A program made the position numbers and the translations under genes. From a virus, in the IMG/VR virus record IMGVR_UViG_3300030419_000776, positions 1-27,522 of that record: a stretch of 27,522 bases of DNA. One strand, 5' to 3'. Under the pieces are notes generated by a model. The model worked only from the letters and a program-made list of their open reading frames with translations, was not told where the DNA came from and searched no databases. Every line of letters begins with the position of its first letter. Position 1 is the first letter of the stretch. Below are positions 1-26,931 of this stretch, piece after piece.

Positions 1-36
1 TAGGCGTAGGCGTAGGCGTAGGCGTAGGCGTAGGTG
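1..36 (-). repeat. In-frame hexanucleotide repeat coding a Pro-Thr linker
   Basis: Five perfect copies of TAGGCG fill bases 1-30 and a sixth copy with one change lies at 31-36. The array runs off the window edge, so its true length is unknown. On the coding strand each unit reads CCTACG, that is Pro-Thr. Unit gain or loss keeps the frame and only changes linker length. Confidence 0.9.
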
Positions 37-2044
37 TACACCCTCCACACGAGCTATTTACCTGTAACGTAGTTACGCTACAATCTGACGTTGTTCCTAC
101 AGCTATAATTTTCCAACATTTAGTTCCATCAAATCCTGAACCACATGAACCTCCTCCACCTCCACTAATCTTAAGAGCCACTCCTATGGTACTAGAATCG
201 TATGTTCCTACTAACGTAACATAAGCTGTTGAAGAAGCATCAGAACAATCTTCAATTTGAACATTGGTTGTAGCTACTGGCGTAGGTGTTGGTGTAGGAG
301 TTGGCGTAGGGGCAGCACAACTAACTTTAGCATTAACCGTACCTGAAGAGTTAATTAGTAATTTATAATCAGGTGTCGCTTGACCGAGAACATTTGACAC
401 CCCATACCAATCTAAAGCTCCATTAAATACTGTAGACTGAGATGAGTTAGCGTACATGGTGTCTCCAACTATAATTAACCCTACATTAGCTCTACTTGTA
501 AATATATAATCACTTGTTGCGTAATTACAAGCTGTAGATTCCACCCAGCCATTTCCTGCTGTAGCATTTACATAAGTAGTTGGACTTTCACAATCAAAGC
601 AGTTTACATAATTAGTTAATGCCTCAATACTTACGCTTGATGTTGCGGTTGTTGTTTGAGCATTAGAGAAACATAAATCATTACCACTTACATTATACTT
701 TATTACATTTGGCCAACTAGATGTTGTTGTAAGTTTTCTAAATACTTGCGTGGTAGAAGTATAACATTCTGTATACTCTTTATATTCATATATTGGCGTT
801 GGTGTACACCCTCCACAACTAGAGTCTGCACTGTCTACTGTAACAGTTGAATCATAAGAGCTGGCAGCTGCATCGGTTATCTCCCAACAAGTTGCTCCTG
901 TAAATTCTGGGTTAGGGCCTCCTGCTGCTCCGGTTATTCTTAAAGCTTGTCCTACTATATATCCTCCTGTTCCTGAGATTCTTATATCATAAGTTGGTGT
1001 TGTTGTTCCACACTCTCGTATTGTTACATCCTGTGTAGGAGCTGTAGGGGTTACTGGAGTTGGGGATGGAGGTGCGCTACAGTCTACTATTGCATTTACC
1101 ACACCTGAAGCATTTATTAGTAAAGCAAATCCACTATCTAAATTAGGATAATGATTAATTACATTGGTTACACCATAATAATTTGTTCCACCATTCCACA
1201 CATTTGTAAGACCTACATTTGTATAAATTATATCATTCACTTGTATTGAAGCAACGTTAGCTCTTGATGTATACATACTGTTTGTAGCTTGCGCTGCACA
1301 AGCAGCTGCTGAGTTACCAACTCCACTACCTACAGTGTAAGTAGAAAAGATTTCTGTTCCAGTAACAGTAGGAACTGGTGCTACAGGCACTGGTACAGGT
1401 GTTGGTGTTGGTGTACAAGCAACACAACTAGCATAAGTGGGTAAACCTGCTGCATCCACTAAAGAAGTAGAACCTGTAACTACAGGATTTTCCCAACAAT
1501 TTCCGCTATATCCTAAGAAAGAAGGGAAAACATATCCTGATACCCCTCTAAATACCTGAGTTGTTGAACCTCCACATTCTGTATATTCTTTATAGTCATA
1601 AGTAATAGCCGGTACAGGTGTTGGTATAGGTGTTGGCGTTGGCGTGCCTGTACATGTAGCACAATCCGCAAAACTAGGAAGACCATTAACATTAACCGTA
1701 GATGTAGAACCTGTAACTACAGGATTTTCCCAACATTTTGAATCATATTCTACTGAAGCTGGCCAGCTTCCTCCTGATACTACTCTAAACACTTGAGTTG
1801 TAGCGCCTCCACATTCTGTATATTGTCTATAATCATAAAGGATTGGTGTTGGCACTGGAGCAGGTGAAGCACAGCTAGGACAGGTAATTTCTGCATAAAG
1901 CACTCCTGAAGCTTGTTGTCTATATATGCTTTCATTTGAATACCAGCCGTCTGGCGCAAAAACAGTTAAATCAGCATCCGTATACAGTGCTGTAGCAGTT
2001 GAAAAACTTGCTGAGCTATAATAATATGTACCTAATGCTGCCAT
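1..2044 (-). CDS. Pro-Thr-linked Cys-rich modular adhesin (3' end beyond window)
   Basis: Translation from the ATG at 2044 stays open to base 1, giving about 681 residues with no stop, so the C terminus is missing. The chain is a string of about 70-110-residue modules, each rich in Cys, Tyr, Thr and Gly, mostly separated by linkers such as TPTPTPIPTPVP. Three module types recur. Type A has YTECGG, TTQVFR, CWENPVVTGSTS and a closing CxxC. Type B has SRANV, WYGV and LLIN-SG-VNA followed by Cys. Type C ends in SSCGGCTPTP. I read the order as B-like, A, A, B, C, A, B, C. No signal peptide or membrane segment is visible. It directly follows the tail-hub gene, which ends in a related module, so a virion-attached fibre or adhesin is the natural inference. 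Pro-Thr linkers are typical of extended surface proteins. I do not know a named family for it. Confidence 0.8.
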   Translation of the reverse strand, partial: MAALGTYYYSSASFSTATALYTDADLTVFAPDGWYSNESIYRQQASGVLYAEITCPSCASPAPVPTPILYDYRQYTECGGATTQVFRVVSGGSWPASVEYDSKCWENPVVTGSTSTVNVNGLPSFADCATCTGTPTPTPIPTPVPAITYDYKEYTECGGSTTQVFRGVSGYVFPSFLGYSGNCWENPVVTGSTSLVDAAGLPTYASCVACTPTPTPVPVPVAPVPTVTGTEIFSTYTVGSGVGNSAAACAAQATNSMYTSRANVASIQVNDIIYTNVGLTNVWNGGTNYYGVTNVINHYPNLDSGFALLINASGVVNAIVDCSAPPSPTPVTPTAPTQDVTIRECGTTTPTYDIRISGTGGYIVGQALRITGAAGGPNPEFTGATCWEITDAAASSYDSTVTVDSADSSCGGCTPTPIYEYKEYTECYTSTTQVFRKLTTTSSWPNVIKYNVSGNDLCFSNAQTTTATSSVSIEALTNYVNCFDCESPTTYVNATAGNGWVESTACNYATSDYIFTSRANVGLIIVGDTMYANSSQSTVFNGALDWYGVSNVLGQATPDYKLLINSSGTVNAKVSCAAPTPTPTPTPTPVATTNVQIEDCSDASSTAYVTLVGTYDSSTIGVALKISGGGGGSCGSGFDGTKCWKIIAVGTTSDCSVTTLQVNSSCGGCTPTPTPTPTPTP
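30..800 (-). repeat. A-B-C module block, second copy
   Basis: This is the second occurrence of the three-module order A (about 800-580), B (about 580-270) and C (about 270-36). It matches the block at about 800-1613 in order, Cys spacing and signature words (YKEYTEC, SRANV, SSCGGCTPTP). The A module here has lost the CWENPVV segment. Boundaries are approximate. Confidence 0.65.
800..1613 (-). repeat. A-B-C module block, first copy
   Basis: Modules A (about 1613-1370), B (about 1370-1040) and C (about 1040-800) occur in the same order as in the block downstream. The word GGTGTACACCCTCCACA at the C/linker junction is present at the end of both blocks (32-48 and 801-817). This suggests duplication of a three-module unit. 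Confidence 0.65.
1467..1498 (-). repeat. 32-nt perfect direct repeat, copy 1
   Basis: Bases 1467-1498 are identical to 1704-1735. On the coding strand they encode the WENPVVTGST part of two successive A modules. Perfect nucleotide identity within otherwise diverged modules indicates a recent duplication or gene conversion. Confidence 0.9.
1704..1735 (-). repeat. 32-nt perfect direct repeat, copy 2
   Basis: Second copy of the repeat at 1467-1498, 237 bases away, which equals one A module plus linker. Both copies are in the same reading frame of the adhesin gene. Confidence 0.9.
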
Positions 2045-2069: not shown

Positions 2070-5000
2070 TTATACTGAACATCTTGAGTCTCCACATCCT
2101 GTTACTTGCACTGTTACTTCTCCATCAGTCCCTGTTCCTCCTACCGCATATAATGAAGCACATCCTTTAACTACTCCTCCAAATGAATACTGAACTTCAT
2201 CTCCAACCACAATACCTAAACTTGTCACTGCTTTTACATATACAGCTTGTAGATTAGCACAATCTATTCCAATGTAATAATCGTAAGTTGGCGCTGGTGT
2301 CGGACTCGGAGCAACCGGTGTAGGTGTCGGTGTAGGCGGGAATGTACAGCTACAACAAGAGTCATACCCGTCTACTGTAGAAAAACATAATTGCTCTCCT
2401 AATGAGTTTCTTAAATCATACACTAAATAAAGTTTATCTCCTCCAGCTGGAAGGGTAAATCCTGCTGAGTATAAATTAGGAGCACCTGAAGTAACTATTG
2501 GTGTTGCTGCTACTGATGCTGCTAAAAGTATATTCATATCCGTTGAATTATTTTCATATAGAGCATCAGTCCTTAAATATCTAAACGCATTATCAGTAGT
2601 GTTAAAGACGAAGTCATCAAAATTAATTTTATTAGACCTCATTGTTATAACCGCTCCGTCTGGAGGAATTACATTTGTTCCTTGTCCTCCCTCTAGTTCT
2701 CTATACTGAGAAACAATAGGGTCGTTTGGACTAGCGGCAAACGTAACTAAATCCGATTGCGTAGGCGAGGTTACCGTGCCTTGTGTCCATAAATACTCTG
2801 TATGAATAAATTGACCTGCATTAGCGTTTGTTGTTAAGGTAATACTGTATACGTTAAATAATACTGGCCCAGGACATTTTACGGTTACCTGTATGGTATC
2901 ATCCACTGTAGCATCTGTAGATACAATTAAAACCACTTCTGTTGGAGAAGGCAGGCTTTTATCAAAACTTAATGTACCGCTTTGATACACGACCCCTGTT
3001 GAGTAAGTTACCCCATTGTAAATAGCCTGAATAGTATACCCAGTTCCAGAAGACTGTCCTTCCGTTATAATGTCATCACCCCCTTCAGTTACTATTTGCT
3101 GTTCTGTTCCTTCAGTTATAATTGGGTCTGTGTTTTCAAAAGGTATAACATAATCAATATAAACTGTGCCTGTTTCATCAGTGACGTCTACACAATAAAC
3201 AAATTCTTTGGTAGCTACTACCGTAATATTTTTAGTTACTCCACAAGCAGTGCACAGCTCAGTTTCAGGTTTTATAATAGTGTTAGAAGTAAAAACATAC
3301 TCGTGCATGTAGGGGTCATATCCTCCTAATTTTTGAGTAGGCGAGGCTTCAGCAAATAAATCTCTAAACCAACTACGCATTCCCTCGTTCGATATTACCG
3401 TAAGTGTTTCATCTTGTGCAGATGAACCTGTTAATTTAATAATAACATTTCTTTTAGCATCTGAAAAGAATTTATCTTCACCAAAAGCTGCAAAACTTTC
3501 GGGGTGATTACTAATACCGTAATCTTCAATACGTGCAATTTGTTGGCCTAAAACTTCAGGAACAGAAGTCACTACTCCTCCTCCTGTTGAGTCAGATAAA
3601 AGATTTTTACCTGCTAACACGTAAGATATTTTGTCTTCTTGTAGGGTTAAAACATCAGTTTCTCTAGCATATAAAATCTCTACATCCCCATAAGTTTCTT
3701 CTAGTGCTTTAAAATTTAATAACCCTAAATTAAATTCATTCAATCTATTAACGTTAGATTCATCATTATACACCCCACTGTATGTTATATCTGCAAACCT
3801 ATGAGCTTCTTTATACTCTTCGTTCGAGGTAGTAAATACTCTGTTTCCTAAAGTGAAAGATTGACCTTTAATTGAATCTCTTATTTTATAACTTTCCGCC
3901 CCATTTCCAAACGCAAAACAGTTAATAAAACCAGGTTGAACTATAGCTGATTGTATTATATCCCCATTAGAGTCTTTAGTTTGGCTTTGCACGTTACCTA
4001 TGTGTGTTCCATTACTTATGTTGTAACATGTGTCATTTTCATACCACACATCCGGCAAAGCATCCCCTGCTTCTGTTTCAAAAATATAAGTAGCGGAATC
4101 TCCTCTATACACGGTAAAAGAAACATCTAATATAGACTGTTCATTAGAAGATTTTCCTAATGAATAAGAACCCGAAACTAAAAGATAAATTAAATTGTTA
4201 CCCGCTGCATCTTGTGTACTTGTGTCTTCATATATTCTATAATAAAAATCATCATTAAAATCTAAAGAGGCCGGTGACCCTCCTCCAAAATAAGTAGAGC
4301 TATTTAGGTCGCTGTCTGTTTTCATGCTTGCATATATACCTGTAGTGGTGAAAGGAGGAGCTCCCGTGCTTACTTGAGGGGTGACATAGGTATTGTTTAT
4401 AGTTTGCTGTTGGCCTGGATTTTTAACTCCACTATTTAATGTGCTAGCTACATTATCTCCAATAAACCAATCAGCCATATTAGTATAGCTTGTGGATGCT
4501 GTAAGAGTTTGTTCTAATACATAATTACGTCTTCCTGTTCCTGCGCCTGTGCCTGTTCCATTTCTTTGCATCTCTACCTTCATTACTATTCTTGTTCCTA
4601 CTGGCACGTCATAAACATCATAAACCGGTGTTGTACCAGAAGTGTTTGTGGCAGTAAAAAAAGGAAAAGCTACCACAGGGATAAACCCTGAGATTACAGA
4701 TTTTATTTTTTTGGGGTCAACCGCTATTACTGCATTTGGGTCTTGAATAGAAGTAAAATTAGAAGCGTTTATTTTCATATAAACTCCACCTATAACTTCT
4801 ACAGATGAACCAGCTGCATCATAAATAGTAATAAACCCTGCTGATTGAGCTTCTTTTTCCAACACTGTCGCCGTTATACATCGAGTCATTGGGCCTGTAG
4901 TGTCAGCTTTTACTATTAACCTATCTCCAGCCTCAACTTTAGTAGCATTCTCTCCTTCTAATAAAAAGTAACTTGCATTAGAGACCGTGTCTCTATACAC

Positions 5001-7013
5001 AACATTACTGTATATAGTATTGTAGCTTTCTTTAGTGGGTTTTACCACAAACTTATATTTAGTAGCCCAACTAGGAGGCTTTTGTCCTATCGGTATTTCT
5101 ATCTGCGCATAGTTTCGTGAAGTAGATTTACTACACGGGATAGTTATAGAATTATAAGGGCTAACTAAAGCTGTTGAGGCTCTATTGTAATCATCCATAT
5201 AAACTATGCCAAACTCATACCCTCTATTACTGTGTAAACTTTTAATACTGGTGCTCTCTCTAAAACTGGCAGTTGCATTTACAATACCATAATAAGAATA
5301 AAGAGTGAAACTGCTGTCTGTATATGTTGCAGCTAAACTTTGAATTTTAAGAGACTTAGAAGAAGTTCCTGATATCGTTGCGGTTATAGGCTCTCCTTTG
5401 GCTGGAGAAGCAGCAGTTGATGAGGTTATTCCTGTTTGTAATAAATTTGTATAAGTAGCATCAAAAGCTTCAGGAATAGTTCTATTAAATACGTCAGTTA
5501 ACGTATTTCCGCTACCTGCCTGCGCATTACTTAAAGTCTGAATTGTAGAGGCTGTTCCTATCTTTTCTTGAAAATCAGTACTTGTAACAAAGTCATAAAC
5601 AGTATTATAATCTTCTATTAGAGTATATGTCCAGCTTAAATCATAAACTGCCGCACTAGGAGTAGGAGCAGGAGCTACACCCGAACTAAGTTCATTAGCA
5701 AAATAAGTTACACCAAAATTTATAGTTAATTCTGTACCCGCTTTTAATTTAGATTCACCAGAATCTAAAGCGCTTAAATCTAAATTTAAAACACTATCTG
5801 ACACAGACTTTACCGCTGAGGTGGGGGTGTATGTATAGTCACCCTGACTTGTCTGTGCTGGAATAGTTAGAATAGATATTTCTTCAGATTTATAAGTAGC
5901 GGTAAAATCTAAATTAATTTTACTTCCCTCTGCATCTGTCAGATTATAACCTTCTTTATAATTTCCATACATAAGCCTATTACCCATTAATGTTTGGGCT
6001 TTTGCATATTGAGGAACATTATCATACAGTCTTAAAATTTCTGAATCCGGCAATACCGTGAAGATTTTTCTGTTAGTAAAAGGGAATGTAACAAGAGAAT
6101 TATCAGTATATCCTAATTCTTTCTTATTAAAAGTTTCGATAACTTTAATAGTAGAGTTATCGGCTTCTTTAAATAAAAGCTGTATAGATTTAACAGCACT
6201 TCCTCCTGTGTTAAATGTAACATTACAAGCGTTATCTGCATTAACCATCCCCTCATTCAGATAACTGTTAGCGCTAAAATCAAAAGTTTTAGGCTTGAAT
6301 GCGGGCTCACTAAACTGAGAAGTGGCCGAATACTCATTGTTCGCATATTGATACCTATAGGCAAAACAAATTAACTTATCCTCTAAGTACGCATCATCTA
6401 TAGTAGATACATAATAAGTTTCAATCGTAGGAGCAGTAGTAGGAGGTTTTTTTATAACCAAGATTTCATCTTGATTAAATGTATCTAAATCTGTACCTGA
6501 AGCAGGGTCTCCATAATTTTGTTTTATATTTATTACTCTTGGAGCATTAAAATTATCTGTAAAAAAAAGTAAATTTTCTATTTTATCAACCCCTGTTATT
6601 AAGTAATTAGGATTAAAATTTAATGTGGTATCAATTCCATTTCCATTATCTATACTTATTACATGATAGATAAGCTCACCTGTTTCAACATCAAATGAAA
6701 TAACTAAATCTAGCTTACCAGTTGCACCTTGAGTAAAGGCTGGGTCATGAACAAACCAGTAAATAACTAAATTAGCACCATCCTCAAAAGCACCTATACA
6801 TCTTGCTTGAGAACTCAGGGGAGTTCCATCTACATATTGAAGGGTGGTTAAGGGAATATTTCCTTTACTATTTTCTACAGCTCCTATCTCGGTTTCTTCT
6901 GTAGAACCTAACCTTACATTCAAAGCGTCTACATATTCTCCATTAGGAACGAGCCTTTCATCAAGGCTCTTGTTCATACGTCCCCTTATAAAATTTCTTT
7001 GAATGTTTGCCAT
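2070..7013 (-). CDS. Large tail hub / stabilisation-type protein with C-terminal Cys module
   Basis: 1647 residues. The N terminus (NKSLDERL at about 14-21, GEYVDALNVR at 25-34, then an acidic patch and GAVENSKGN) is what I recognise in the large 'stabilisation' proteins of short-tailed marine and crAss-like phages, which relate to the P22 gp10 tail hub and the crAss muzzle. A central conserved stretch near residues 595-615 has EFGIVYMDDYNRAST. Around 1294-1324 the motif ITEG/VTEG occurs three times. Near 1557-1574 a PTPTPTPVAPSPTP linker leads to a final Cys-containing module of about 70 residues like those of the next gene. It starts one base after the neck-protein stop. The family call is from remembered motifs. 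The role (ring closing the portal and carrying fibres) is inferred from position. The C-terminal extension is unusual for the family as I know it. Confidence 0.7.
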   Translation of the reverse strand: MANIQRNFIRGRMNKSLDERLVPNGEYVDALNVRLGSTEETEIGAVENSKGNIPLTTLQYVDGTPLSSQARCIGAFEDGANLVIYWFVHDPAFTQGATGKLDLVISFDVETGELIYHVISIDNGNGIDTTLNFNPNYLITGVDKIENLLFFTDNFNAPRVINIKQNYGDPASGTDLDTFNQDEILVIKKPPTTAPTIETYYVSTIDDAYLEDKLICFAYRYQYANNEYSATSQFSEPAFKPKTFDFSANSYLNEGMVNADNACNVTFNTGGSAVKSIQLLFKEADNSTIKVIETFNKKELGYTDNSLVTFPFTNRKIFTVLPDSEILRLYDNVPQYAKAQTLMGNRLMYGNYKEGYNLTDAEGSKINLDFTATYKSEEISILTIPAQTSQGDYTYTPTSAVKSVSDSVLNLDLSALDSGESKLKAGTELTINFGVTYFANELSSGVAPAPTPSAAVYDLSWTYTLIEDYNTVYDFVTSTDFQEKIGTASTIQTLSNAQAGSGNTLTDVFNRTIPEAFDATYTNLLQTGITSSTAASPAKGEPITATISGTSSKSLKIQSLAATYTDSSFTLYSYYGIVNATASFRESTSIKSLHSNRGYEFGIVYMDDYNRASTALVSPYNSITIPCSKSTSRNYAQIEIPIGQKPPSWATKYKFVVKPTKESYNTIYSNVVYRDTVSNASYFLLEGENATKVEAGDRLIVKADTTGPMTRCITATVLEKEAQSAGFITIYDAAGSSVEVIGGVYMKINASNFTSIQDPNAVIAVDPKKIKSVISGFIPVVAFPFFTATNTSGTTPVYDVYDVPVGTRIVMKVEMQRNGTGTGAGTGRRNYVLEQTLTASTSYTNMADWFIGDNVASTLNSGVKNPGQQQTINNTYVTPQVSTGAPPFTTTGIYASMKTDSDLNSSTYFGGGSPASLDFNDDFYYRIYEDTSTQDAAGNNLIYLLVSGSYSLGKSSNEQSILDVSFTVYRGDSATYIFETEAGDALPDVWYENDTCYNISNGTHIGNVQSQTKDSNGDIIQSAIVQPGFINCFAFGNGAESYKIRDSIKGQSFTLGNRVFTTSNEEYKEAHRFADITYSGVYNDESNVNRLNEFNLGLLNFKALEETYGDVEILYARETDVLTLQEDKISYVLAGKNLLSDSTGGGVVTSVPEVLGQQIARIEDYGISNHPESFAAFGEDKFFSDAKRNVIIKLTGSSAQDETLTVISNEGMRSWFRDLFAEASPTQKLGGYDPYMHEYVFTSNTIIKPETELCTACGVTKNITVVATKEFVYCVDVTDETGTVYIDYVIPFENTDPIITEGTEQQIVTEGGDDIITEGQSSGTGYTIQAIYNGVTYSTGVVYQSGTLSFDKSLPSPTEVVLIVSTDATVDDTIQVTVKCPGPVLFNVYSITLTTNANAGQFIHTEYLWTQGTVTSPTQSDLVTFAASPNDPIVSQYRELEGGQGTNVIPPDGAVITMRSNKINFDDFVFNTTDNAFRYLRTDALYENNSTDMNILLAASVAATPIVTSGAPNLYSAGFTLPAGGDKLYLVYDLRNSLGEQLCFSTVDGYDSCCSCTFPPTPTPTPVAPSPTPAPTYDYYIGIDCANLQAVYVKAVTSLGIVVGDEVQYSFGGVVKGCASLYAVGGTGTDGEVTVQVTGCGDSRCSV

Positions 7014-7014
7014 T

Positions 7015-7929
7015 TTATTTTAACCACTTATTCTCACCTCTCAAGTTCATTAATAATCTGCCTGGGTGAATATTACTTAACCTTATTTTTGCGTTTCTCA
7101 ATAAAGCTTGCTTATCTTTTCTTGCTCTATTAACTATATATTCCTGCACTCCAAATCTTCCATTTAAGATGGCGTACTTAATATATGCGTAAATGTATTC
7201 CTCAAAAAGCTTGTTCAAAGTAATACTGCTATCATCTCCATTTTCCATTCCATCTGAAATATATTGAAGCACACAATCTTGATTAGCCATAGTAGAGTCA
7301 AAATTTATTACCCCCGCTTTTTTATCAATAGTAAAAGTCGGATTAAAATTAGCTGTTTCTGTATTTAAACCATAGCGAGCCCCAATTCTATATAAGTCAT
7401 TATTACAGTTGATACACTCAGGATTTACTGTTTGGTCATTTATTTCGTTTAAATATATAGTTTGTAATGACCCATCTTTTCTTTCTATATCTAATGTAGA
7501 TTCTATAACTGTTGCATTATTATCTCCGTCATAAGTAAAATCAGCTGCCCCTGTCTGAAGATAAGATGTAGCGGATTGAACTTGTATATTTTCAGTAAGC
7601 TCTCTTAACACATTATCTTTAAGTAAATAAAGCTTAACCCAATTAACATAATCAGGAGGTAAAACAAAGCGCAAGTCGTCATATACTTTAAGCTCTAAAG
7701 CTTTTATTTGTTTAAAAGCATCGTAATTAAGCTCTTGAATACCACGTTTAGCGTGAAATAATATCTGATATCTATTGATGTTATTAATTAACTCGTGGTT
7801 TCCTTCATACATTAATTGAAAATTTTTAACTATATCCTCTAAACTCACATATTGATAAGAACCCCAATTTGCATCTGTAGGATTTACACCATCGTTTGTA
7901 TAATATTTTTTTTGATTTATATATGCCAT
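7015..7929 (-). CDS. Head-tail connector / ring (tail tubular-like) protein
   Basis: 304 residues. The N-terminal half has SLEDIVKNFQLMYEG (about 29-43), FHAKRGIQELNYD (about 58-70) and LPPDYVNWVKLYL (about 94-106). I recognise this pattern from neck proteins of uncultured marine and crAss-like phages, placed next to the large hub protein in a P22 gp4-like or ring-protein role. Four Cys occur in the whole chain, with CINC at about 172-175. The basic C terminus (NRARKDKQALLRNAKIRLS) follows a helical tail. It lies 2 bases after the preceding neck gene and 1 base before the hub gene, so the three are surely co-translated. Function is inferred from family pattern and position; no enzymatic motif is visible. 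Confidence 0.6.
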   Translation of the reverse strand: MAYINQKKYYTNDGVNPTDANWGSYQYVSLEDIVKNFQLMYEGNHELINNINRYQILFHAKRGIQELNYDAFKQIKALELKVYDDLRFVLPPDYVNWVKLYLLKDNVLRELTENIQVQSATSYLQTGAADFTYDGDNNATVIESTLDIERKDGSLQTIYLNEINDQTVNPECINCNNDLYRIGARYGLNTETANFNPTFTIDKKAGVINFDSTMANQDCVLQYISDGMENGDDSSITLNKLFEEYIYAYIKYAILNGRFGVQEYIVNRARKDKQALLRNAKIRLSNIHPGRLLMNLRGENKWLK

Positions 7930-7931
7930 AA

Positions 7932-8663
7932 TTAAATATTAGTTTGATTTTGTTGTTGTTCTGATGCGAGTCCAAACTGAAACACATCTGCTTCTCTTAT
8001 TGATACTCCTGCGTATTGTAATATTTTAGCCACCAAATTATTTGCATCATCTTTCGGAAGTTCAAAATCTTGAAAATCATTTTGTGTTTGGTCAAACAAT
8101 GGTTCTCCTCCATATAAAGTAACATAAGTCCATTTAGGGTCTTTGGGATACCTAATATATTGAGCTTGCACGTCATTAGCCCCGTTAAAAGTATTAGGGA
8201 ATACAGTAATTGCATCAGCCTCTTGCGTATAAGCTGGATAGGTAGCAGAAGGAGAAGTTAATAACGAGCTATTAAGCAGCGTTATTTTATTATGTGTAAC
8301 TTTCTCGGCCTCCCCTTTTAATACTCCCCCTGAAAAACAAAGAACTTTATTTAATAAATAATAATCTGAACCTGTTGTTGCTTCAGAAGGAAGGAAAAAA
8401 ACATTTTGTGTTTTTTGAGTTAAAAAAGAAGTAATAGAAAATGTATCAATAACCTCTTCATAGCTGAGCTTTATATCCGCATAACCTGTACCTGACAAGC
8501 GCATGTTCTCTTCATTGATTTGCTCATTATATTTTATAAAATATTCATCAAAAATATCCAGCTGTGCTTGTTTTGCAAATAAGTTAAAATCACTAGGAGA
8601 TATATACCCGTAATTATTCTTATTTATGATAGATAACACAGTATTTCTAACAGAATTTATCAT
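7932..8663 (-). CDS. Neck / head-completion structural protein (conserved in marine phages)
   Basis: 243 residues beginning MINSVRNTVLSIINKNN. An in-frame ATG at 8774 would give 280 residues. I reject it because the extra 37 codons would run through a strong rho-independent terminator (8691-8722) and overlap the preceding gene, while the sequence after 8663 begins with a conserved-looking NYGYISPSDFNLFAKQAQLDIF. A box TATCTTTG lies 17 bases upstream of the chosen start. Other visible words are RLSGTGYADI, AQYIRYPKDPKWTY, FQDFELP and ILQYAGVSIRE. I associate these with conserved structural proteins next to the neck protein in marine podoviruses. The Gln/Asn-rich end (QQQNQTN) is probably flexible. 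A ring or head-closure role is inferred from location only. Confidence 0.6.
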   Translation of the reverse strand: MINSVRNTVLSIINKNNYGYISPSDFNLFAKQAQLDIFDEYFIKYNEQINEENMRLSGTGYADIKLSYEEVIDTFSITSFLTQKTQNVFFLPSEATTGSDYYLLNKVLCFSGGVLKGEAEKVTHNKITLLNSSLLTSPSATYPAYTQEADAITVFPNTFNGANDVQAQYIRYPKDPKWTYVTLYGGEPLFDQTQNDFQDFELPKDDANNLVAKILQYAGVSIREADVFQFGLASEQQQNQTNI

Positions 8664-8679
8664 TTGAATTTGTTTTATA

Positions 8680-8687
8680 CAAAGATA
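8680..8687 (-). promoter_or_regulatory. Bacteroidota-type -7 box (TATCTTTG) before the neck genes
   Basis: TATCTTTG on the coding strand, 17 bases before the ATG at 8663 and immediately after the terminator hairpin. The arrangement terminator then promoter would start a separate neck-hub transcript. No convincing -33 TTG is found, because that position falls inside the hairpin. Confidence 0.5.
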
Positions 8688-8690
8688 AGC

Positions 8691-8722
8691 AAAATAAAAA
8701 AGCACCCTGATTTGGGTGCTTT
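8691..8722 (-). terminator. Rho-independent terminator after the small structural gene
   Basis: On the coding strand the stem AAAGCACCC / GGGTGCTTT (9 bp, perfect) closes a 6-base loop AAATCA and is followed by TTTTTATTTT. The stop codon of the 93-aa gene is about 33 bases upstream. On the plus strand the hairpin is followed by only three T, so it acts on the minus strand. Confidence 0.85.
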
Positions 8723-8754
8723 CTCGCTGTCGATAGTAAAGGAAGGATATTTCT

Positions 8755-9036
8755 TTATGCGACTGCAATTCCACTTACAGCATAAGGTAGGTTATCTACA
8801 TCATACGCTGGGTTTGTCCAAGAAGTAGTTAAAGCTGCTACAACTGCGGATTCAATAGTGTCTCTTTGCGTTTCATCTCCCGCACCTGCTGTTGCGTGAG
8901 TAACAGTGGTTACTTGACCACCTCTATATGTAATTGTTACTGTAGTAGTAGATGCTTGCTCTATTAATACAATTCCGGTAATCGCTACCAACTGGTATTG
9001 CTCTCCGGTTACTGGGATATTTAAAAATTTTTGCAT
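8755..9036 (-). CDS. Small conserved structural protein (93 aa)
   Basis: 93 residues: MQKFLNIPVTGEQYQLV, then a beta-rich stretch with ASTTTVTITYRGG (about 29-41), a VTHATAGAGDETQRD segment, an Ala-rich helix (IESAVVAALTTSW) and a C-terminal NLPYAVSGIAVA. I recall very similar short proteins in uncultured marine phages beside capsid genes, where they are taken as virion proteins. No catalytic motif is present. It is a single-gene unit, with the box TAACTTTG 30 bases upstream and a strong terminator just downstream. That suits a high-copy virion component such as a capsid decoration or cement protein, which is inference. Confidence 0.5.
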   Translation of the reverse strand: MQKFLNIPVTGEQYQLVAITGIVLIEQASTTTVTITYRGGQVTTVTHATAGAGDETQRDTIESAVVAALTTSWTNPAYDVDNLPYAVSGIAVA

Positions 9037-9065
9037 TGTAAAAAAATTAATAGTTAAACTTATCG

Positions 9066-9073
9066 CAAAGTTA
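9066..9073 (-). promoter_or_regulatory. Bacteroidota-type -7 box (TAACTTTG) before the 93-aa gene
   Basis: TAACTTTG on the coding strand overlaps the stop codon of the 276-aa gene (9071-9073) and lies 30 bases before the ATG at 9036. The 11-base word GCAAAGTTACG (plus strand) is shared exactly with the box before the scaffold-like gene. No -33 element is apparent. Confidence 0.5.
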
Positions 9074-9901
9074 CGAATTTTTTGCTAACGATTTTAAATG
9101 TTTAAACGACTCCAGCCCATCATCGCTTTGAAAGAACGATGCTATTATATACATAGGGTCTTCACCATAAGGCACATTACACATTTTCTTTTTGTTAGAT
9201 GGGGTATTAAACCACACTTCACGTTTTTGATTTCTTAACTGCAATAAACCTTTGTCTATTATGTTTTGAATAGAAGCATTAAGCTTAAGCATAGGGTCTT
9301 TAAGCAATCTCATAAACCCACCAGGGTCTTTTTTAGCAAAGATTAATATATCACGTCTTAATTCCGATGTAGTTACAGTGGTAACATCTCTTTGAAATAA
9401 AACTCTAGCTACATTTTCTACTTGCTCTACGTCTAATTGTCTAGCTTCAATTAATGCGTCCACCTCTGTATTAAGGTCACTCACTATTTCAGCCGCTTCT
9501 TTAGCCTTATTTATTTCTACAAAAATTCTCCCATTACCTGGGTGTAAAGCTAAAAATTGCTGTAGGACTTGGTTGTTTTTAGGCACATATAAAAACCCAT
9601 CTTCAAAAACGATAGGTTCTAAAATTGCATTATCATCTTGCTCATCCTGAAAAGGAGAGTTTTGATTTCTTGCATATCGAAGTGGTCTATTAATACCTGT
9701 TTCTTCATCGAAATGCAGTAAAGGGAATCTGTTCGTGTGTCTTGACGCTAATATAAGCGATAAGGGAGCAGTTTCTCTAGTAAGTTTATATGATTTGTCT
9801 ACGTATTTTGGAGTAGACTTTTTTGGTTGAGGCTTAGTTTTTTTCTTTTTTTTAACCGCCTCTTTGGTTTCCTGTGTAGGAATATCTTTTTCTTTTTCCA
9901 T
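9071..9901 (-). CDS. Conserved phage protein of unknown function (276 aa)
   Basis: 276 residues. The N terminus is very basic (KEAVKKKKKTKPQPKKSTPK, about 13-32) and probably disordered. A globular part follows with ASRHTNRFPLLHFDEETG (about 52-69), RYARNQNSPFQDEQDD (about 75-90) and LEPIVFEDGFLYVPKNNQVLQQF, then LALHPGNGRIFVEIN and a helical C-terminal half. I recognise this pattern from marine phage head regions but know no assigned function. It sits right after the major capsid gene, separated by a terminator hairpin, so its expression would be reduced relative to capsid. The basic tail could contact DNA or capsid, which is speculation. The start at 9901 is preceded by an A/T-only leader with TTAAA repeats, similar to the leader of the scaffold-like gene. 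Confidence 0.5.
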   Translation of the reverse strand: MEKEKDIPTQETKEAVKKKKKTKPQPKKSTPKYVDKSYKLTRETAPLSLILASRHTNRFPLLHFDEETGINRPLRYARNQNSPFQDEQDDNAILEPIVFEDGFLYVPKNNQVLQQFLALHPGNGRIFVEINKAKEAAEIVSDLNTEVDALIEARQLDVEQVENVARVLFQRDVTTVTTSELRRDILIFAKKDPGGFMRLLKDPMLKLNASIQNIIDKGLLQLRNQKREVWFNTPSNKKKMCNVPYGEDPMYIIASFFQSDDGLESFKHLKSLAKNS

Positions 9902-9927
9902 TGTTATTTAATTTAATTTAATTTAAA

Positions 9928-9964
9928 ATTTAAAAATAGGGGCACATTATTATGTACCCCTATT
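9928..9964 (-). terminator. Terminator hairpin after the major capsid gene
   Basis: Eleven bases after the capsid stop the coding strand folds as AATAGGGG, U, ACAU, loop AAUA, AUGU, G, CCCCUAUU, followed by TTTAAATTTT. The only non-Watson-Crick position is a U-G wobble, allowed in minus-strand RNA, but it becomes a C-A mismatch in plus-strand RNA. This supports action on the minus strand. The U tract is short and interrupted, so partial read-through to the next gene is likely. Confidence 0.75.
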
Positions 9965-9974
9965 GAATTAAGTA

Positions 9975-11438
9975 TTAATCTTGAAATAAGAAGAAGTTGT
10001 TTGCACCTAAAGTACATACAGCTCTTTCACTCAAGAAGTTTACTTGCATGTTATCCACATCACTTGTCGCAGCACCACCAGCAGAACCAGTAATCCACGT
10101 TTTGTAACGTCTGTCTTCAGTTTCTGAAGCTCTATATCTAACATGTAAGAAAGGTCTTTTAGCGTTTTTACCAAGAATTTGGTCGTAAACACTTGTAGAA
10201 CCAGCTGGAACTAATAGTCCATTGATTTTACCAGAACCTGCACCTGATGGTAAACCACCTCTCATTGTAGGGTCGTTTAAGTATTTCCAATCAGTTTTGT
10301 AGAAGTCATAACCTCTTCTAAATCCAGAGAATCCTAGATTTAAAGCCATTTCTTCGTCATTGTCAAATAGACCGTAAGAAGTACCACCCGCTCCATAAGA
10401 GTTTTGAGCAGCTAACATGTCGTCCATATCAAAAATGAATTGTCTGTTTGCGAAAATTACATTTTCTTCTATAGCTCCCTGCTTGTCTAATCTACTAATA
10501 ATAGAGTCAAAATCTGCTAAAGTAGTTGGGTTACCACCATCCCAGATGTTTCCTCTTTGCGTAACTGCGTAGAAAATTCCATCAGAACCAGCACCTGGGT
10601 CTGCTGCCCCACCAGCGCTACCTAAGATAGCAGCTGCACCTGAGTTTTGCTCAGCTGGCACAGTTTCAATCATTGCTGTTTCTAAATAATCATCAAATCT
10701 AAGTCTTGTTTCGTGCTCAGATTTTAAATACCAAAGGTATCCTGTAGCTCCATCTTCAGTAGTAATTTCTACCCATCCAATTTGAGCCATATCAGAACCA
10801 GATACATTGTAAGTATCTTTAATGATAATAGGCTTGTTGTCAAAAATGAAGTCATTAGCTTCTAATGAACCTGTCATTCCTGCTGTACCTTTTTTAAATT
10901 CTGAACCGTAAATGAATACAGTAACATCTGCGTTACCTACCCCTGTTCCTGCTGTAACTAAACCACCTGCTTCGTAAAAGTCAGCTGTGAACTGTCCTCT
11001 ACCACCAGCGGCATTATTTACTGCACTAACTACTGCTTTGTTTGAACCAGAGCCATCATTTTGAACAACCATAATTGTTTGTCCTACTCTAATAACCTGC
11101 TCAGCAGCAGCTGGGTCTAATACATCATTTACTTGAAAAGTTGCTTGGTCAGCATTAACCAAAGCACCACTTCCCACACTTGTATATTTTGTGTGTAATC
11201 TACCTTGCTCTGCCCATTTAATAAGGTCAGAGTTCGTAGGCATCTCTGCACCTACCATTCTTAAGAATGAAGATATAGTTCTATTTCCATATCTCTCAAA
11301 CTCTTTCTCGTAAGTGTCAGGTAAGTATTGATTTAACCAATCGAAATCCGCATTAGTTAAATAATTTTGAGCTGTCGGAGTTCTTTCTGAACTCGGTGTC
11401 AACGCATACGTTGGCGTTGCTTTCACTTGTCCTGCCAT
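9975..11438 (-). CDS. Major capsid protein (HK97-type, inferred)
   Basis: 487 residues. The N-terminal segment has NYLTNADFDWLNQYLP (about 25-40), YEKEFERYGNRTISSFLRMVG (about 43-63) and DLIKWAEQGRLHTKY (about 71-85), which I recognise from capsid proteins of uncultured marine and crAss-like phages. Many Gly/Ala/Asp-rich loops follow and the chain ends in a beta-rich NNFFLFQD. Length, position after portal and scaffold-like genes, and a strong terminator directly downstream all fit the most abundant virion protein. Codon use looks smoother and more GC-rich at third positions (ACC/GCT-type runs) than in neighbours, as expected for high expression. This is an impression, not a count. No N-terminal delta-domain or protease is obvious, so whether it is cleaved is unknown. 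Confidence 0.75.
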   Translation of the reverse strand: MAGQVKATPTYALTPSSERTPTAQNYLTNADFDWLNQYLPDTYEKEFERYGNRTISSFLRMVGAEMPTNSDLIKWAEQGRLHTKYTSVGSGALVNADQATFQVNDVLDPAAAEQVIRVGQTIMVVQNDGSGSNKAVVSAVNNAAGGRGQFTADFYEAGGLVTAGTGVGNADVTVFIYGSEFKKGTAGMTGSLEANDFIFDNKPIIIKDTYNVSGSDMAQIGWVEITTEDGATGYLWYLKSEHETRLRFDDYLETAMIETVPAEQNSGAAAILGSAGGAADPGAGSDGIFYAVTQRGNIWDGGNPTTLADFDSIISRLDKQGAIEENVIFANRQFIFDMDDMLAAQNSYGAGGTSYGLFDNDEEMALNLGFSGFRRGYDFYKTDWKYLNDPTMRGGLPSGAGSGKINGLLVPAGSTSVYDQILGKNAKRPFLHVRYRASETEDRRYKTWITGSAGGAATSDVDNMQVNFLSERAVCTLGANNFFLFQD

Positions 11439-11465
11439 GATTTTATATTTATTTTAAAATTATTA

Positions 11466-12653
11466 TTAAGTTTTCTTTATACTCTTTATTTTCAATCCTC
11501 GGCTTGAAGGCTGAGAGACTGATTTAACTTGAAAACCTGATTTTACAGAAACCTCTGGAGCATTACGTTGAGTCATATTGACGTTTTTAGTTTTACGTAT
11601 TACTTCATCGGTTGCCTGCGACTTGCCTTGTTCATAAAAGAACTGAGCAAATTTTTCAGGATTCATTGCGAGAGCTAAAGCCTTGTGGTAACCTTCTGCA
11701 TCTTTAATAAAACCATTGTTATCCAAATATTTATTAATTAAATTTAAAGGAGTTGCGTTAGTTTTTTTAATTTCCGCAGCTGTACCGGGGGAATAAACCA
11801 TCTCATCTTCTCCTATTTTGAATTTAAAACCTTTAAACTCAGGAGTGAATAATTCATCGCTTTTTTTGACAAACCATTCTCTTTTTTGAGCTGCTTGTTC
11901 CTGTTGGATTTTAGCATTCTCTAAATATTGCCTATACTCAATAAGTTCTTCGTTATTAGCAGTGGCAGAACTTTCTCTTGACTCAAGAGGCTGTTTGTAT
12001 TGTTCCTGCTGTTGTTTTAAAAACTTTCTTGCCTTAGCAATCTCTTTTTTCTTTGCTAGCTTTATTTTTTTTATCTCCGCTGGTTCATGTACTTCTTCAT
12101 CAAAAGTAAACTCCTCCATCAAAGAATCAATATCATCAGAGTCTAAACCTTCTTCGGTTATTGTTAAATACTCTCTAAGCAAAGCGTCTGGCGAATAGTC
12201 TGAATAATCTTGCTGTAAACGAGCGTAATCATTCATTCCTCTTCCAGTTTCTTGTTTATATTTTAGGTATGCCGCAACGTCTTCAGGCAAATCTTCCGCC
12301 TCCTCACGTTTGCTAATTAACTCATCCATTGAGTTAACTTCCTTGCCATACCTTTTTTCAATAAATGAAAGAACATCTTCTTCATTAACCTCTGGTGGCT
12401 GCGTAAGCGTCGGAGGCTCTTCTTCAACTGGAGGCGTTTCGGCCTCTTCTTTTATTTCTTCTTGTACTCCCTCCTCTTCTTTTATCTCTTCCTGCACATC
12501 TTCCTGTACTTTTTCTTCCTCTTTTACTTGTTCAGCCTCAACTGGCTGTTGAGTAGCTTCTTGTTTTTGCTCATGCTTATCAAGAAGTTCTTGTTCTATT
12601 TGCTGAGTAGATTTTTCTTCTATATCAGTTACTTCTCTTACTTTTATTTCCAT
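11466..12653 (-). CDS. Scaffold-like acidic protein between portal and capsid
   Basis: 395 residues. The first 90 or so residues are dominated by Glu, Gln and Val with imperfect repeats (VQEDVQEEIKEE, GVQEEIKEEAE), ending in a Pro-rich PPVEEEPPTLTQPPE. The middle is helical and charged (EIKKIKLAKKKEIAKARKFL, QQQEQYKQ). Later there is a compact segment with LFTPEFKGFKFKIGEDEMVY and NLINKYLDNNGFIKD. The C terminus is basic (RGLKIKSIKK). Acidic, coiled and flexible with a basic end, placed directly between portal and major capsid, is the usual profile of an internal scaffold whose C terminus binds capsid protein. No protease motif is seen. The role is inferred, and a minor head protein is the alternative. 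A TAACTTTG box lies 24 bases upstream. Confidence 0.55.
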   Translation of the reverse strand: MEIKVREVTDIEEKSTQQIEQELLDKHEQKQEATQQPVEAEQVKEEEKVQEDVQEEIKEEEGVQEEIKEEAETPPVEEEPPTLTQPPEVNEEDVLSFIEKRYGKEVNSMDELISKREEAEDLPEDVAAYLKYKQETGRGMNDYARLQQDYSDYSPDALLREYLTITEEGLDSDDIDSLMEEFTFDEEVHEPAEIKKIKLAKKKEIAKARKFLKQQQEQYKQPLESRESSATANNEELIEYRQYLENAKIQQEQAAQKREWFVKKSDELFTPEFKGFKFKIGEDEMVYSPGTAAEIKKTNATPLNLINKYLDNNGFIKDAEGYHKALALAMNPEKFAQFFYEQGKSQATDEVIRKTKNVNMTQRNAPEVSVKSGFQVKSVSQPSSRGLKIKSIKKT

Positions 12654-12676
12654 TTGATTTAATTTAATTTATTTTG

Positions 12677-12684
12677 CAAAGTTA
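12677..12684 (-). promoter_or_regulatory. Bacteroidota-type -7 box (TAACTTTG) before scaffold and capsid genes
   Basis: TAACTTTG on the coding strand, 24 bases before the ATG at 12653, in the 48-base gap after the portal gene. The following leader is A/T-only with TTAAA repeats. It would drive the scaffold-capsid pair that ends at the hairpin near 9945. No -33 TTG is seen at standard spacing. Confidence 0.5.
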
Positions 12685-12701
12685 CGTAAAATATAAACAC
12701 A

Positions 12702-15137
12702 CTATCTAGGCTCAAATTCAGCTAAGTCAAACCCATCTAAAGAATCTTCGTTAGACTCAAAGTTTTTAGGAGGTAAATTGTTTTTACGCTGATTTATTAA
12801 CTCAGATTGTTGTGTATTTTGTTGGCTTATCCTGTCGCTTTTAGCTTGTTCTTTTTCATTCTCTCTATCACTTATTTGCGCCTGGGTCATTCCTTGTAGA
12901 TGTAAATTATACTGAAACTCTTGCTCCATTAATTGAGATTTTAACACGGCTTCTGTCTTTTGTTTTTCAATCTCAAAAGCAATATCCGCCTGTCTATACT
13001 TCATTTTAGCTTGAGTTTCCATTTCTATTTTTTGTGCAGCTACCTGCGCAGCCATTTGCTGTGACTGTAATTGTTGTTGAGATATTACAGCTTGCTTTTG
13101 TAGTTCTCTTTTTTCGTCAGCCTCTTCTTTAGCTTTTCGTTTAACTTTCAATAATTGATTAGCTAGTTTAAGATTTTTTATCTCTCTAATATCTATAGCA
13201 TCTTCTAAATTAATATCGCCTTTAGATAAAGCCATTTGTATGTTTTGTTCAAGCATAGCTTTTTGCTCTTCATCTGGAGATAACTCAATAAAGATTCCAA
13301 AGTCATAAATATATAATTCCGCAATATCCCCTAGTATACTTACATTATATTTTCCAATTTTATTTATAAAATCTTCTTTAAAATCCGAGTATTCTAATAT
13401 ATCCGCCACTCTATAAGTTAACGCTTCTGCTAAGGTTCTATATATATAAAGACTTCCATCTAATATATGACGGGTAGCGGTATTAGAGCTTAACGCAGCT
13501 AGTTTTTGAACACCAACCAAGGCATCTGAATTTGCTATAGTACCATCTCTCGCTTCATTTAAGCCTGTTACAGCTCGAATCATATCTAAGTAGTGGTTAA
13601 GGTTTGCTATAAGCATTTGTGCCTTAGAAGCTCCTGAATTGCTTGTGAGTTGTTGTATAGGAACTTTACCTTGGTTATAATCCCCTTCTTGTGTATAACT
13701 TCTACCAATTACACTACCAGTTTGGAAATATAATCTTAATGCGTCTTGCGGATTATAGGCTGCCCCTGTTCCTAAGTCTACTTCGTTTAAACCATCTGCA
13801 TCAATATATACTCCATCTGGAACAGTTCTAGCTATTACTTGTTGAAGTTTTAAATGAGTCATTTGGATTAAGTCAGCATAAGGAATCATTCTTCTTACTA
13901 AAGACTCCACTACACCTTTGTACATTCGAGGTGCAACTGCCACATAGTTTGGTATTGCATGCTGAGAAGCTGACTTAGGTCTTACCATATTTTTAGCAAG
14001 CTCCCACTTAAGTATAATGTTAGTCCCCATTACCATCACCCCTTCATACCACACATCTATTGTTTTTTCAATTTTTTCAAAATTTCCTTCTTCCATCATT
14101 TCTTCTGGAGGATTAAACCCATCATCTTTTTCTATCATCTTTATGTTTCCGTTATCGGAAACTTTCTTTTTGTAAACTATTTTTTTAGTTGTCTTGTAAT
14201 TAAAATACATTAACGTACATGTGTCTCTGTAAAAAATATCATTTTCATAAAACTGTGCTACATTAAAATAGTTAAACCAAGTTTGGCTGTACTTTGATAT
14301 TTTATCTAAATCTTCTCTGGTTAATGTAGGGTCTATTTTATTAAGCTCTGTAATTGGAACAGTTTTAATTTCACCCCAATAAAAACAATCTTTAAAGTGA
14401 GGGTCTTCTGTATAGCTATATACAATATTTGCTGGGTCAACATAAGATATATCTACTCCTGCGCCTGGTAAAAATTCATGTTTGGCTACTGCCATTCCTG
14501 TTACCATTATATCGTAATCTAACCTTTTACGTATATCATCATAATGATTTTCGGCAAACATAGTATCAATAGCTTCTTCTTCCGCAATTTCAATAGCAGG
14601 CTTGTAGTTTAAGTTCATATAAAGACTTAGCTCTTCATCGCTTGCAGGTAATTCATCTGGATTCATAATAAAAGGGTCAAACCCTGTACCCTCTTGAATA
14701 ATGCTTAACACATCCTTTGCCGCCATCTGCCCCTCAATCATTTCTTGATATTTATTTCTTTTAGATTGAGACAGGGCGTCTTGAGCATAGGCGTTTACTT
14801 TAAAAAGCCTGTCAGACATTCCATTTACCACTATATCTACAAACTTAGGAATAATAGGCACAGGCGTCCAGTCTAAGTTAAGGTAAGATAAATCTCCATC
14901 TACAGCTAACTCATTTTTATATTTGGCTATAGATTGTTCTCCTCTTGCGTATAAGCGAAGTCTATTAAAATCTCTCCACTGTTGATAGTATCTACAACCA
15001 GTAGAATCTTTTCTAAACCATTCGTATTGTATTGCTTGTCCAATTTGTAATCCAAACTCGTAAGTTTCCTTTTCTGCGTCTGAGACAAATTGACTAGGAA
15101 ATCCTACAGATGAAATATTTATTGTAACTTCTTTCAT
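12702..15137 (-). CDS. Portal protein with long Gln-rich coiled-coil tail
   Basis: 811 residues. It overlaps the terminase stop by ATGA, the classic terminase-portal junction. The N-terminal 100 residues have YYQQWRDFNRLRLYARGEQ and IIPKFVDIVVNGMSDRLF. The body contains VTGMAVAKHEF, GVDISYVDPANIVY, a segment around NMVRPKSASQHAIPNYVAVAP and later VTGLNEARDGTIANSDALVG, all of which fit large portal proteins of marine and crAss-like phages. From about residue 665 to 775 it is a long Gln/Glu/Lys-rich helix (QQQLQSQQMAAQVAAQK and onward), followed by a charged disordered end. The tail probably forms the portal barrel reaching into the capsid. The portal forms the dodecameric ring through which terminase pumps DNA. 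Assignment rests on context and overall pattern. Confidence 0.75.
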   Translation of the reverse strand: MKEVTINISSVGFPSQFVSDAEKETYEFGLQIGQAIQYEWFRKDSTGCRYYQQWRDFNRLRLYARGEQSIAKYKNELAVDGDLSYLNLDWTPVPIIPKFVDIVVNGMSDRLFKVNAYAQDALSQSKRNKYQEMIEGQMAAKDVLSIIQEGTGFDPFIMNPDELPASDEELSLYMNLNYKPAIEIAEEEAIDTMFAENHYDDIRKRLDYDIMVTGMAVAKHEFLPGAGVDISYVDPANIVYSYTEDPHFKDCFYWGEIKTVPITELNKIDPTLTREDLDKISKYSQTWFNYFNVAQFYENDIFYRDTCTLMYFNYKTTKKIVYKKKVSDNGNIKMIEKDDGFNPPEEMMEEGNFEKIEKTIDVWYEGVMVMGTNIILKWELAKNMVRPKSASQHAIPNYVAVAPRMYKGVVESLVRRMIPYADLIQMTHLKLQQVIARTVPDGVYIDADGLNEVDLGTGAAYNPQDALRLYFQTGSVIGRSYTQEGDYNQGKVPIQQLTSNSGASKAQMLIANLNHYLDMIRAVTGLNEARDGTIANSDALVGVQKLAALSSNTATRHILDGSLYIYRTLAEALTYRVADILEYSDFKEDFINKIGKYNVSILGDIAELYIYDFGIFIELSPDEEQKAMLEQNIQMALSKGDINLEDAIDIREIKNLKLANQLLKVKRKAKEEADEKRELQKQAVISQQQLQSQQMAAQVAAQKIEMETQAKMKYRQADIAFEIEKQKTEAVLKSQLMEQEFQYNLHLQGMTQAQISDRENEKEQAKSDRISQQNTQQSELINQRKNNLPPKNFESNEDSLDGFDLAEFEPR

Positions 15138-23119: not shown

Positions 23120-23128
23120 TTTTTTATT

Positions 23129-24166: not shown

Positions 24167-24167
24167 A

Positions 24168-25034: not shown

Positions 25035-25035
25035 A

Positions 25036-26064: not shown

Positions 26065-26073
26065 GAGTTATAT

Positions 26074-26742: not shown

Positions 26743-26754
26743 TTTATTTTTCTT

Positions 26755-26907
26755 TTACGGTGCTTGTTCTGTTATTAAATCTACACTAGTTGCTTCTGAC
26801 ACCATCTGAACTCCTAGCTCTGTTATTATATCTTCCCCTCCGTAAGGTGGAGTAATCCCTAATTCATTTATTCCTATAAAGTTCCCTATGGCAATTAAAT
26901 TCGGCAT
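26755..26907 (-). CDS. Small ORF with ITE motifs (50 aa)
   Basis: 50 residues starting MPNLIAIGNFIGINELGITP, then a GGEDIITELG and ending SVDLITEQAP. It fills an otherwise empty 190-base gap between two structural genes, with 24 bases before it and 12 after. The IITE/LITE words echo the IITEG-IVTEG-IITEG run of the 1647-aa hub protein (about residues 1294-1324), a motif often seen in phage tail proteins. The gene is probably real because of its position and the shared motif. Function unknown. Confidence 0.55.
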   Translation of the reverse strand: MPNLIAIGNFIGINELGITPPYGGEDIITELGVQMVSEATSVDLITEQAP

Positions 26908-26931
26908 ACTATAAACTTATTTTTATTCCGA

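Follow-up and report, generated by a model that had tools for sequence, protein, structure and literature searches.

A modular Cys/Pro-rich putative adhesin of a crAss-like phage and a prolyl 4-hydroxylase/glycosyltransferase cassette of its relatives that may modify its linkers

The pathway of plant extensins and arabinogalactan proteins (AGPs) combines a prolyl 4-hydroxylase (P4H), HPAT-family enzymes (HPAT1-3 belong to GT95) and substrates of alternating X-Pro, with AO, SO, TO and VO as the AGP glycomotifs (PMC7933510). In the Dictyostelium Skp1 pathway a cytoplasmic P4H is paired with a glycosyltransferase of the PF11397 family; this family, GT60, comprises the protist polypeptide alpha-GlcNAc transferases of the mucin type, and its hydroxyproline (Hyp) GlcNAc-transferase modifies Skp1 (PMC8724618). 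Paramecium bursaria chlorella virus 1 encodes a P4H with viral peptide substrates, according to Eriksson et al. (1999) as cited in PMC9301287, and viral P4H is an abundant auxiliary gene in Baltic Sea data, where its viral use "remains cryptic" (PMC9301287). The virions of Xanthomonas phage XacN1 contain at least two glycoproteins (PMC5852040). The muzzle protein gp44 of crAss001 forms the tail tip, its crass domain probably contacts the cell, and muzzles of this type vary in length by insertions able to affect surface properties (PMC10172136). Here we analyse the linear viral record IMGVR_UViG_3300030419_000776 (27,522 bp, the whole stretch being called the window), which begins inside the gene of a modular Cys/Pro-rich putative adhesin next to the muzzle gene. 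The loci of its relatives are labelled by L-numbers.

Our preferred reading, to which we give a probability of about 0.6, is that the adhesin is an outer part of the tail tip and that its linkers, hydroxylated on proline and afterwards glycosylated, become stiff stalks with a sugar coat. It builds on the observed module anatomy, split-gene synteny, cassette content, intact catalytic residues, linker composition and association of P4H with Pro-rich proteins and glycosyltransferases; catalysis, substrate, sugar identity, virion location and adhesion are inferred from these. The adhesin would be the exposed, receptor-facing portion of the muzzle complex, with small Cys modules strung on Pro-x linkers. 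A phage P4H would turn linker proline into hydroxyproline in the cytoplasm, and glycosyltransferases encoded beside it would then add sugars to the modified linkers. The product would be a glycosylated stalk, stiff and resistant to proteases, which keeps the modules apart and alters the surface chemistry of the tail tip, working like the plant extensins and AGPs or the Hyp-glycosylation of Skp1. In contrast to the plant pathway, the phage version would be cytoplasmic and viral, and no later arabinosyltransferases were identified. Unlike Skp1, the phage substrate would be repetitive virion linkers and the glycosyltransferase content is variable; moreover, the PF11397 family includes Thr-directed enzymes. 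The chlorella virus infects a eukaryotic alga, whereas here a two-domain P4H of bacteriophages is genetically tied to a putative tail-tip protein and to glycosyltransferases of Hyp type. XacN1 shares with our loci a GT60 homologue (42% identity) alongside its detected virion glycoproteins (PMC5852040), but neither a P4H nor a Pro-rich neighbour is established for it, and the glycoproteins and their sites were not identified there. The literature that we searched, with subscription papers outside its scope, contained nothing relevant on phage hydroxyproline or a phage arabinosyltransferase.

The adhesin open reading frame (ORF) starts with ATG, is free of stops up to base 1 and codes for 681 residues in the order N-A-A-B-C-A-B-C, eight modules on Pro-x linkers (Table 1). 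The initial annotation had described eight modules of three types, with an A-B-C block present twice. The repeated order was borne out: in global alignments against shuffles the identity is 62% between A2 and A3 (z 25), 48% between A3 and A6 (z 13; A6 against A3/A2 overall z 13-16), 44% between B4 and B7 (z 14.5) and 37% between C5 and C8 (z 11.5), and hidden Markov models (HMMs) rebuilt on relatives from the clade recovered all eight window modules with E 4e-27 to 2e-42. The count of eight held too, while that of three types did not: module N is a type of its own, and A resembles C weakly in sequence (z about 4.5 for A2) and is alike in the strand pattern of the AlphaFold2 model, so that the fold types may be two instead of three unrelated ones. 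In this model seven modules fold separately (pLDDT about 75-90), the linkers lie mostly below 50 and N has no resolved fold. Pro-rich stretches cover 95 residues, against a mean of 2.8 and a maximum of 30 in 500 shuffles. Because of the module similarities, the clade HMMs, the predicted folds and the Pro-rich excess we regard the modular anatomy as real. The duplication of the three-module block is likewise real at the protein level; TRF found no long tandem in the DNA, and the repeat is seen in the protein only. In agreement with the statement that no described family has this architecture, the protein matches no Pfam family; it has one weak PHROG match of unknown function and no tblastn match in 50,697 phage records, and its model finds mostly uncharacterised phage proteins in BFVD.

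Base 1 falls within a (TAGGCG)n array (window 1-38) coding a Pro-Thr linker, which is probably why the assembly breaks there. The contigs of many relatives likewise end within the adhesin, and such genes are probably under-reported because repeats break the contigs. The L002 contig (the same as that of L070) is collinear with the window over 17 kb at 90% DNA identity and carries a full-length adhesin homologue of 875 residues, 86% identical to ours, which continues beyond the window's end with modules D and E, as had been expected from the frame open at base 1.

The muzzle is a single ORF in Cellulophaga phage phi38:1 (gp097, 1324 aa) and in Flavobacterium phage elemo (gp22, 1493 aa). The window muzzle body and the separate C-domain of its relative each correspond to one part of gp097: in the 1647-aa window protein, residues 1-1244 align with gp097 3-1074 (E 2.5e-137), and the L002 C-domain protein, carrying PF25729 crAss_MUZ_C (E 3e-19), aligns with gp097 1078-1323 (E 4e-32). 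The difference is that they are separate ORFs here, with Cys modules, Pro-x linkers and a cassette at the split: relative to gp097, a single site accommodates the C-terminus of the muzzle protein, the adhesin, the cassette and the Pro/Cys-rich beginning of the C-domain protein. Nothing like this insertion occurs in phi38:1, elemo or MW202828. In all seven Pro-poor relatives (7/7) the order is muzzle, N protein, muzzle C-domain, without P4H, and module N heads a protein of 180-425 aa. The nearest complete one, L006 (MW202828), codes for GroEL and a 10-kDa chaperonin at 8958-10848.

The cassette is the most informative feature of the locus. In L002 the adhesin is followed by a P4H, an epimerase/dehydratase of sugar-nucleotide type, a protein of unknown function, an HPAT-like glycosyltransferase and the muzzle C-domain. 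The P4H protein (12685-13986, 433 aa) is a tandem of two 2-oxoglutarate (2OG) oxygenases, the first of which matches PF13640 (E 3e-15) and, by phmmer, bacterial P4H structures (E 8e-26). All nine aligned rows with the P4H half retain its iron/2OG ligands H92, D94, H161 and K171. By homology and by the intact HxD...H/K site the cassette gene of the relatives is thus assigned as a P4H, with peptidyl-proline hydroxylation as the predicted activity. The second half is similar to 2OG-Fe(II) oxygenases of cyanophages and, because its own metal ligands are mostly kept, may hydroxylate another target. Relatives comprised 4 loci with the adhesin itself and 79 with the neighbouring 1647-aa protein, a dereplicated set of 48 loci was used for the tree, and in nearly all clade loci spanning the slot the cassette stands between adhesin and muzzle C-domain. 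Its smallest form is P4H only (L152-154, L162); other phages hold in the slot O-fucosyltransferase (O-FucT), GlcNAc/GT60, carbamoyltransferase, radical-SAM/SPASM, and FkbM or DXD glycosyltransferase genes. Since the contig stops short of the slot, the window phage is credited with a cassette from its relatives, and it presumably carries one.

Further variants were seen. A radical SAM/SPASM gene lies between P4H and GT60 in L009 (11811-12713), L029, L241 and L274, including phages outside the clade; this class includes peptide-modifying enzymes, and a further modification of the same protein is possible. L004 (2706-6661), L038-L048 and L109-L113 combine P4H, O-FucT, a NodU-like carbamoyltransferase and a small hydroxylase-like protein (weak PhyH match) with AP/VP-rich, Thr-poor linkers. 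L172 (MT838812, 6 kb, human faecal, unannotated, phage-labelled) has a P4H 44% identical to that of the clade and may be bacterial DNA.

The glycosyltransferases change around the P4H: in the tree of the 48 loci nine switches of glycosyltransferase type contrast with a nearly constant P4H, and no locus combines HPAT with GT60 or O-FucT. The HPAT/GT95 model PF23452 scores 25.2 bits in L002 against a curated cut-off of 23.9, and 26-33 bits in L125 and in three unrelated phages (L225, L245, L276). At E<=1 it matches 11 of 16 clade members, and the homologues in L239 and L268 give no match. In the alignment D107xD109 of the HPAT-like protein is invariant. Its structural model finds GT-A enzymes of GT6 type as top PDB matches (E 0.02-0.07); as the model is poor, we take this match as supportive at most. 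No HPAT relatives were found in INPHARED, nor in GTDB genome contigs at the sensitivity used. PF11397 is above cut-off (E 1e-14 to 3.5e-76) in L009, L012, L033, L045 and the unrelated L239 and L274. In L245, a 287-kb phage contig, an HPAT-like and GDSL-lipase-like fusion (4491-5945) lies between a Pro-Thr protein and the P4H.

Several observations weigh against the proposed hydroxylation and glycosylation of the linkers. The window ends ahead of the cassette slot, and a search for an extension past base 1 by exact sequence found none. The whole adhesin model has no PDB match at E <= 0.001 (Z under 4; whole-model searches). The resemblance to HPAT is weak (E 4e-8 at best, in those 11 of 16 members, with a model pLDDT of 53), and GT60 enzymes are also able to act on Thr (PMC8724618). 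Pro-rich linkers and the oxygenase occur together in 37 of the 48 loci, linkers alone in 4 and neither in 7; one of the 37 (L067) carries just the second oxygenase half, and the four (L045, L059, L069, L080) retain Pro-Thr linkers but have no P4H. The link between Pro-linkers and P4H within the clade is a single evolutionary event: as the tree shows one change of the linker trait, the association there is no independent statistic, and an independent-pairs test had one pair only, with significance out of reach. In favour of the proposal, outside the clade a Pro-rich protein, HPAT or GT60 lies within 5 kb of P4H in 18/42 loci against 1/55 control loci (Fisher p 3e-7), the dereplicated numbers being of loci rather than of separate gains, with thymidylate synthase as the sole control gene. 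With stricter dereplication the numbers are 15/37 against 1/27 (p 5e-4). Such pairings include L245 (Pro-Thr protein, HPAT/GDSL fusion, P4H), L258, L262, L289 (PPPPPPYV repeats) and L239 (P4H-HPAT-GT60).

One could argue that the linkers are unmodified polyproline-II spacers and that the cassette targets the surface polysaccharide of the host or its proteins, for example in superinfection exclusion, the structural operon merely providing late expression. Phage glycosyltransferases often modify host surface glycans or DNA. A case acting on DNA is described in PMC5852040. Furthermore, the single-domain P4Hs of Erwinia and Salmonella phages are not beside annotated structural genes, and four loci have linkers without P4H. 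However, the cassette occupies the split point of the muzzle next to strongly Pro-rich proteins and is absent from the Pro-poor relatives, polypeptides are the substrates of P4H and HPAT, and P4H adjoins Pro-rich proteins in other phage groups too. We consider a host-directed cassette unlikely, although it survives better than the other alternatives.

The linkers themselves bear on a second alternative, that they are O-glycosylated on Thr/Ser in a mucin-like manner by GT60 or O-FucT, with P4H serving another purpose or fine-tuning just some sites. The known targets of O-FucT are Ser/Thr, GT60 is the family of protist mucin-type glycosylation (PMC8724618), and the P4H-less loci combine GT60 with Thr-rich linkers. 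These four loci form one subclade, which also has a two-domain DXD glycosyltransferase and has lost or never gained P4H. Spacings of two between prolines make up 48-94% of the linker gaps (x = T/S/A/V), and the linkers have the repeated X-Pro motif of extensin/AGP-type hydroxyproline-rich glycoproteins, the Pro fraction being partly set by how linkers were defined. In the linkers of nearly all P4H-positive phages proline recurs at about every second residue and the other residue drifts, Thr making up 0.12-0.51 of the non-Pro residues; in the four P4H-less loci it is 0.58-0.60, a difference that is suggestive, given that the latter are a single subclade. Many P4H-positive linkers are poor in Ser/Thr: L088 has a long (VP)n, and those of the types with O-FucT and carbamoyltransferase are AP/VP with Thr at 0.12-0.26. 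Additionally, P4H is the constant cassette member and in some phages the sole one. Glycosylation of Thr/Ser is therefore an improbable substitute for that of hydroxyproline.

According to a third alternative the modular protein is no adhesin: it would decorate the capsid, be injected or lie inside the virion. It has no receptor or fold match, and its Cys modules do not resemble the receptor-binding folds known from phages. The gene nevertheless lies at the muzzle split point, Pro-rich Cys modules occur in three neighbours (the C-terminus of the muzzle, the adhesin and the N-terminus of the split-off C-domain), many relatives, L005 among them, have the adhesin modules as a direct fusion to the muzzle ORF, and the muzzle of crAss001 is the tail tip (PMC10172136). 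We judge a non-adhesin role quite improbable, and the term adhesin from the initial annotation is plausible, its basis being this location at the split point and the fusion in L005.

The modules were further proposed to evolve by addition, loss and shuffling. Their numbers and orders do differ among relatives, with architectures such as N-A(1-4)-B-C-A-B-C-(A/D)-E, N-A-C-A-E and A5-C-A-E, but the A-B-C duplication is ancient and the core fixed. In trees over 12 phages B4 and B7, C5 and C8, and A6 and A2/A3 form separate clades, so the duplication predates the group and was inherited by position. Gain and loss would therefore act mainly at the protein ends, and the A-B-C core appears stable by position. 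A fresh unequal-crossover tandem duplication with ongoing copying via Pro-Thr hexamer repeats, for which the hexanucleotide repeats and the varying number of N-terminal A modules (1 to 4) would speak, is highly implausible, since the copies are merely 37-48% identical and the position-specific clades are common to the 12 phages. The row most identical to the window C8 is L122 and not L002, a sign of some mosaicism. For B7 and C8 (window 38-580) the identity to the best relative drops to 79% and 73%, against 90-98% for the other modules, which suggests that the distal end evolves faster or undergoes exchange.

The gene order terminase-portal-capsid-ring-muzzle is crAss-like, and the large terminase is 76% identical to that of MW202828 (Manatee Spring) and about 46% to those of Flavobacterium Elemovirus phages, with further matches in Cellulophaga, Tenacibaculum and Maribacter phages. 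PF23898 Crass_capsid scores below the cut-off (E 0.028), and NCBI places neither of the nearest isolate groups, Elemovirus and Pervagoviridae, in Crassvirales. The marine phage is best described as a probable crAss-like podovirus related to phages of Flavobacteriia, its formal membership of Crassvirales being unproven. From gene order, the two virion proteins encoded upstream of the muzzle are probable tail ring/connector proteins. A second fibre-like gene cluster (20126-27402), with a DUF7483 tail-fibre domain and glycine-rich domains, lies at the opposite window end.

Table 1. Positions of the adhesin modules, linkers and neighbouring genes in the window
Feature	Position	Strand	Basis
Modular Cys/Pro-rich putative adhesin ORF, open at base 1	2..2044	-	alignments, HMMs, L002 homologue
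Module N	1871..2044	-	alignments, clade HMMs
Pro-rich linker 1	1844..1879	-	composition vs shuffles
Module A2	1652..1840	-	alignment, AlphaFold2, HMM
Pro-Thr linker 2	1601..1651	-	composition vs shuffles
Module A3	1415..1603	-	alignment, AlphaFold2, HMM
Pro-Thr/Pro-Val linker 3	1364..1420	-	composition vs shuffles
Module B4	1079..1363	-	alignment, AlphaFold2, HMM
Pro-rich linker 4	1034..1081	-	composition vs shuffles
Module C5	806..1033	-	alignment, AlphaFold2, HMM
Module A6	590..790	-	alignment, AlphaFold2, HMM
Module B7	317..580	-	alignment, AlphaFold2, HMM
Pro-Thr linker 5	269..319	-	composition vs shuffles
Module C8	38..271	-	alignment, AlphaFold2, HMM
Pro-Thr linker 6, truncated by contig end, DNA (TAGGCG)n	2..43	-	TRF, composition
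Muzzle body, residues 1-1244 of 1647-aa protein	3282..7013	-	homology to phi38:1 gp097; PHROG 14478 E 2e-213
Muzzle C-terminal extension, ending in Pro-Thr linker and Cys module	2070..3281	-	no counterpart in phi38:1/elemo
Cys module T, C-terminus of muzzle protein	2073..2288	-	A/C likeness weak, not significant
Pro-Thr linker ahead of module T	2289..2339	-	composition
Two virion structural proteins upstream of muzzle gene	7015..8774	-	PHROG 13977, PHROG 14543
Major capsid, scaffold-like, portal and large terminase genes	9975..17380	-	used for phage placement

Since the viral use of P4H is called cryptic (PMC9301287), the Pro-x linkers of the tail tip offer a testable answer to its role, as a specific candidate substrate. 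It is about an even bet that phages more generally encode a modular Hyp O-glycosylation system for Pro-rich tail-tip linkers, made of P4H with a glycosyltransferase of HPAT-, GT60- or O-FucT-type and sometimes radical-SAM enzymes or carbamoyl-/methyltransferases, which would resemble extensin/AGP glycosylation, the locus staying fixed while the sugar chemistry can be exchanged. On this reading it can be argued that some "auxiliary metabolic genes" are enzymes of virion maturation. If the proposed linker modification is real, phages use a modification of plants, algae and protists for the structures that contact the host, swapping its sugar chemistry at one locus, with possible effects on host range and phage decay.

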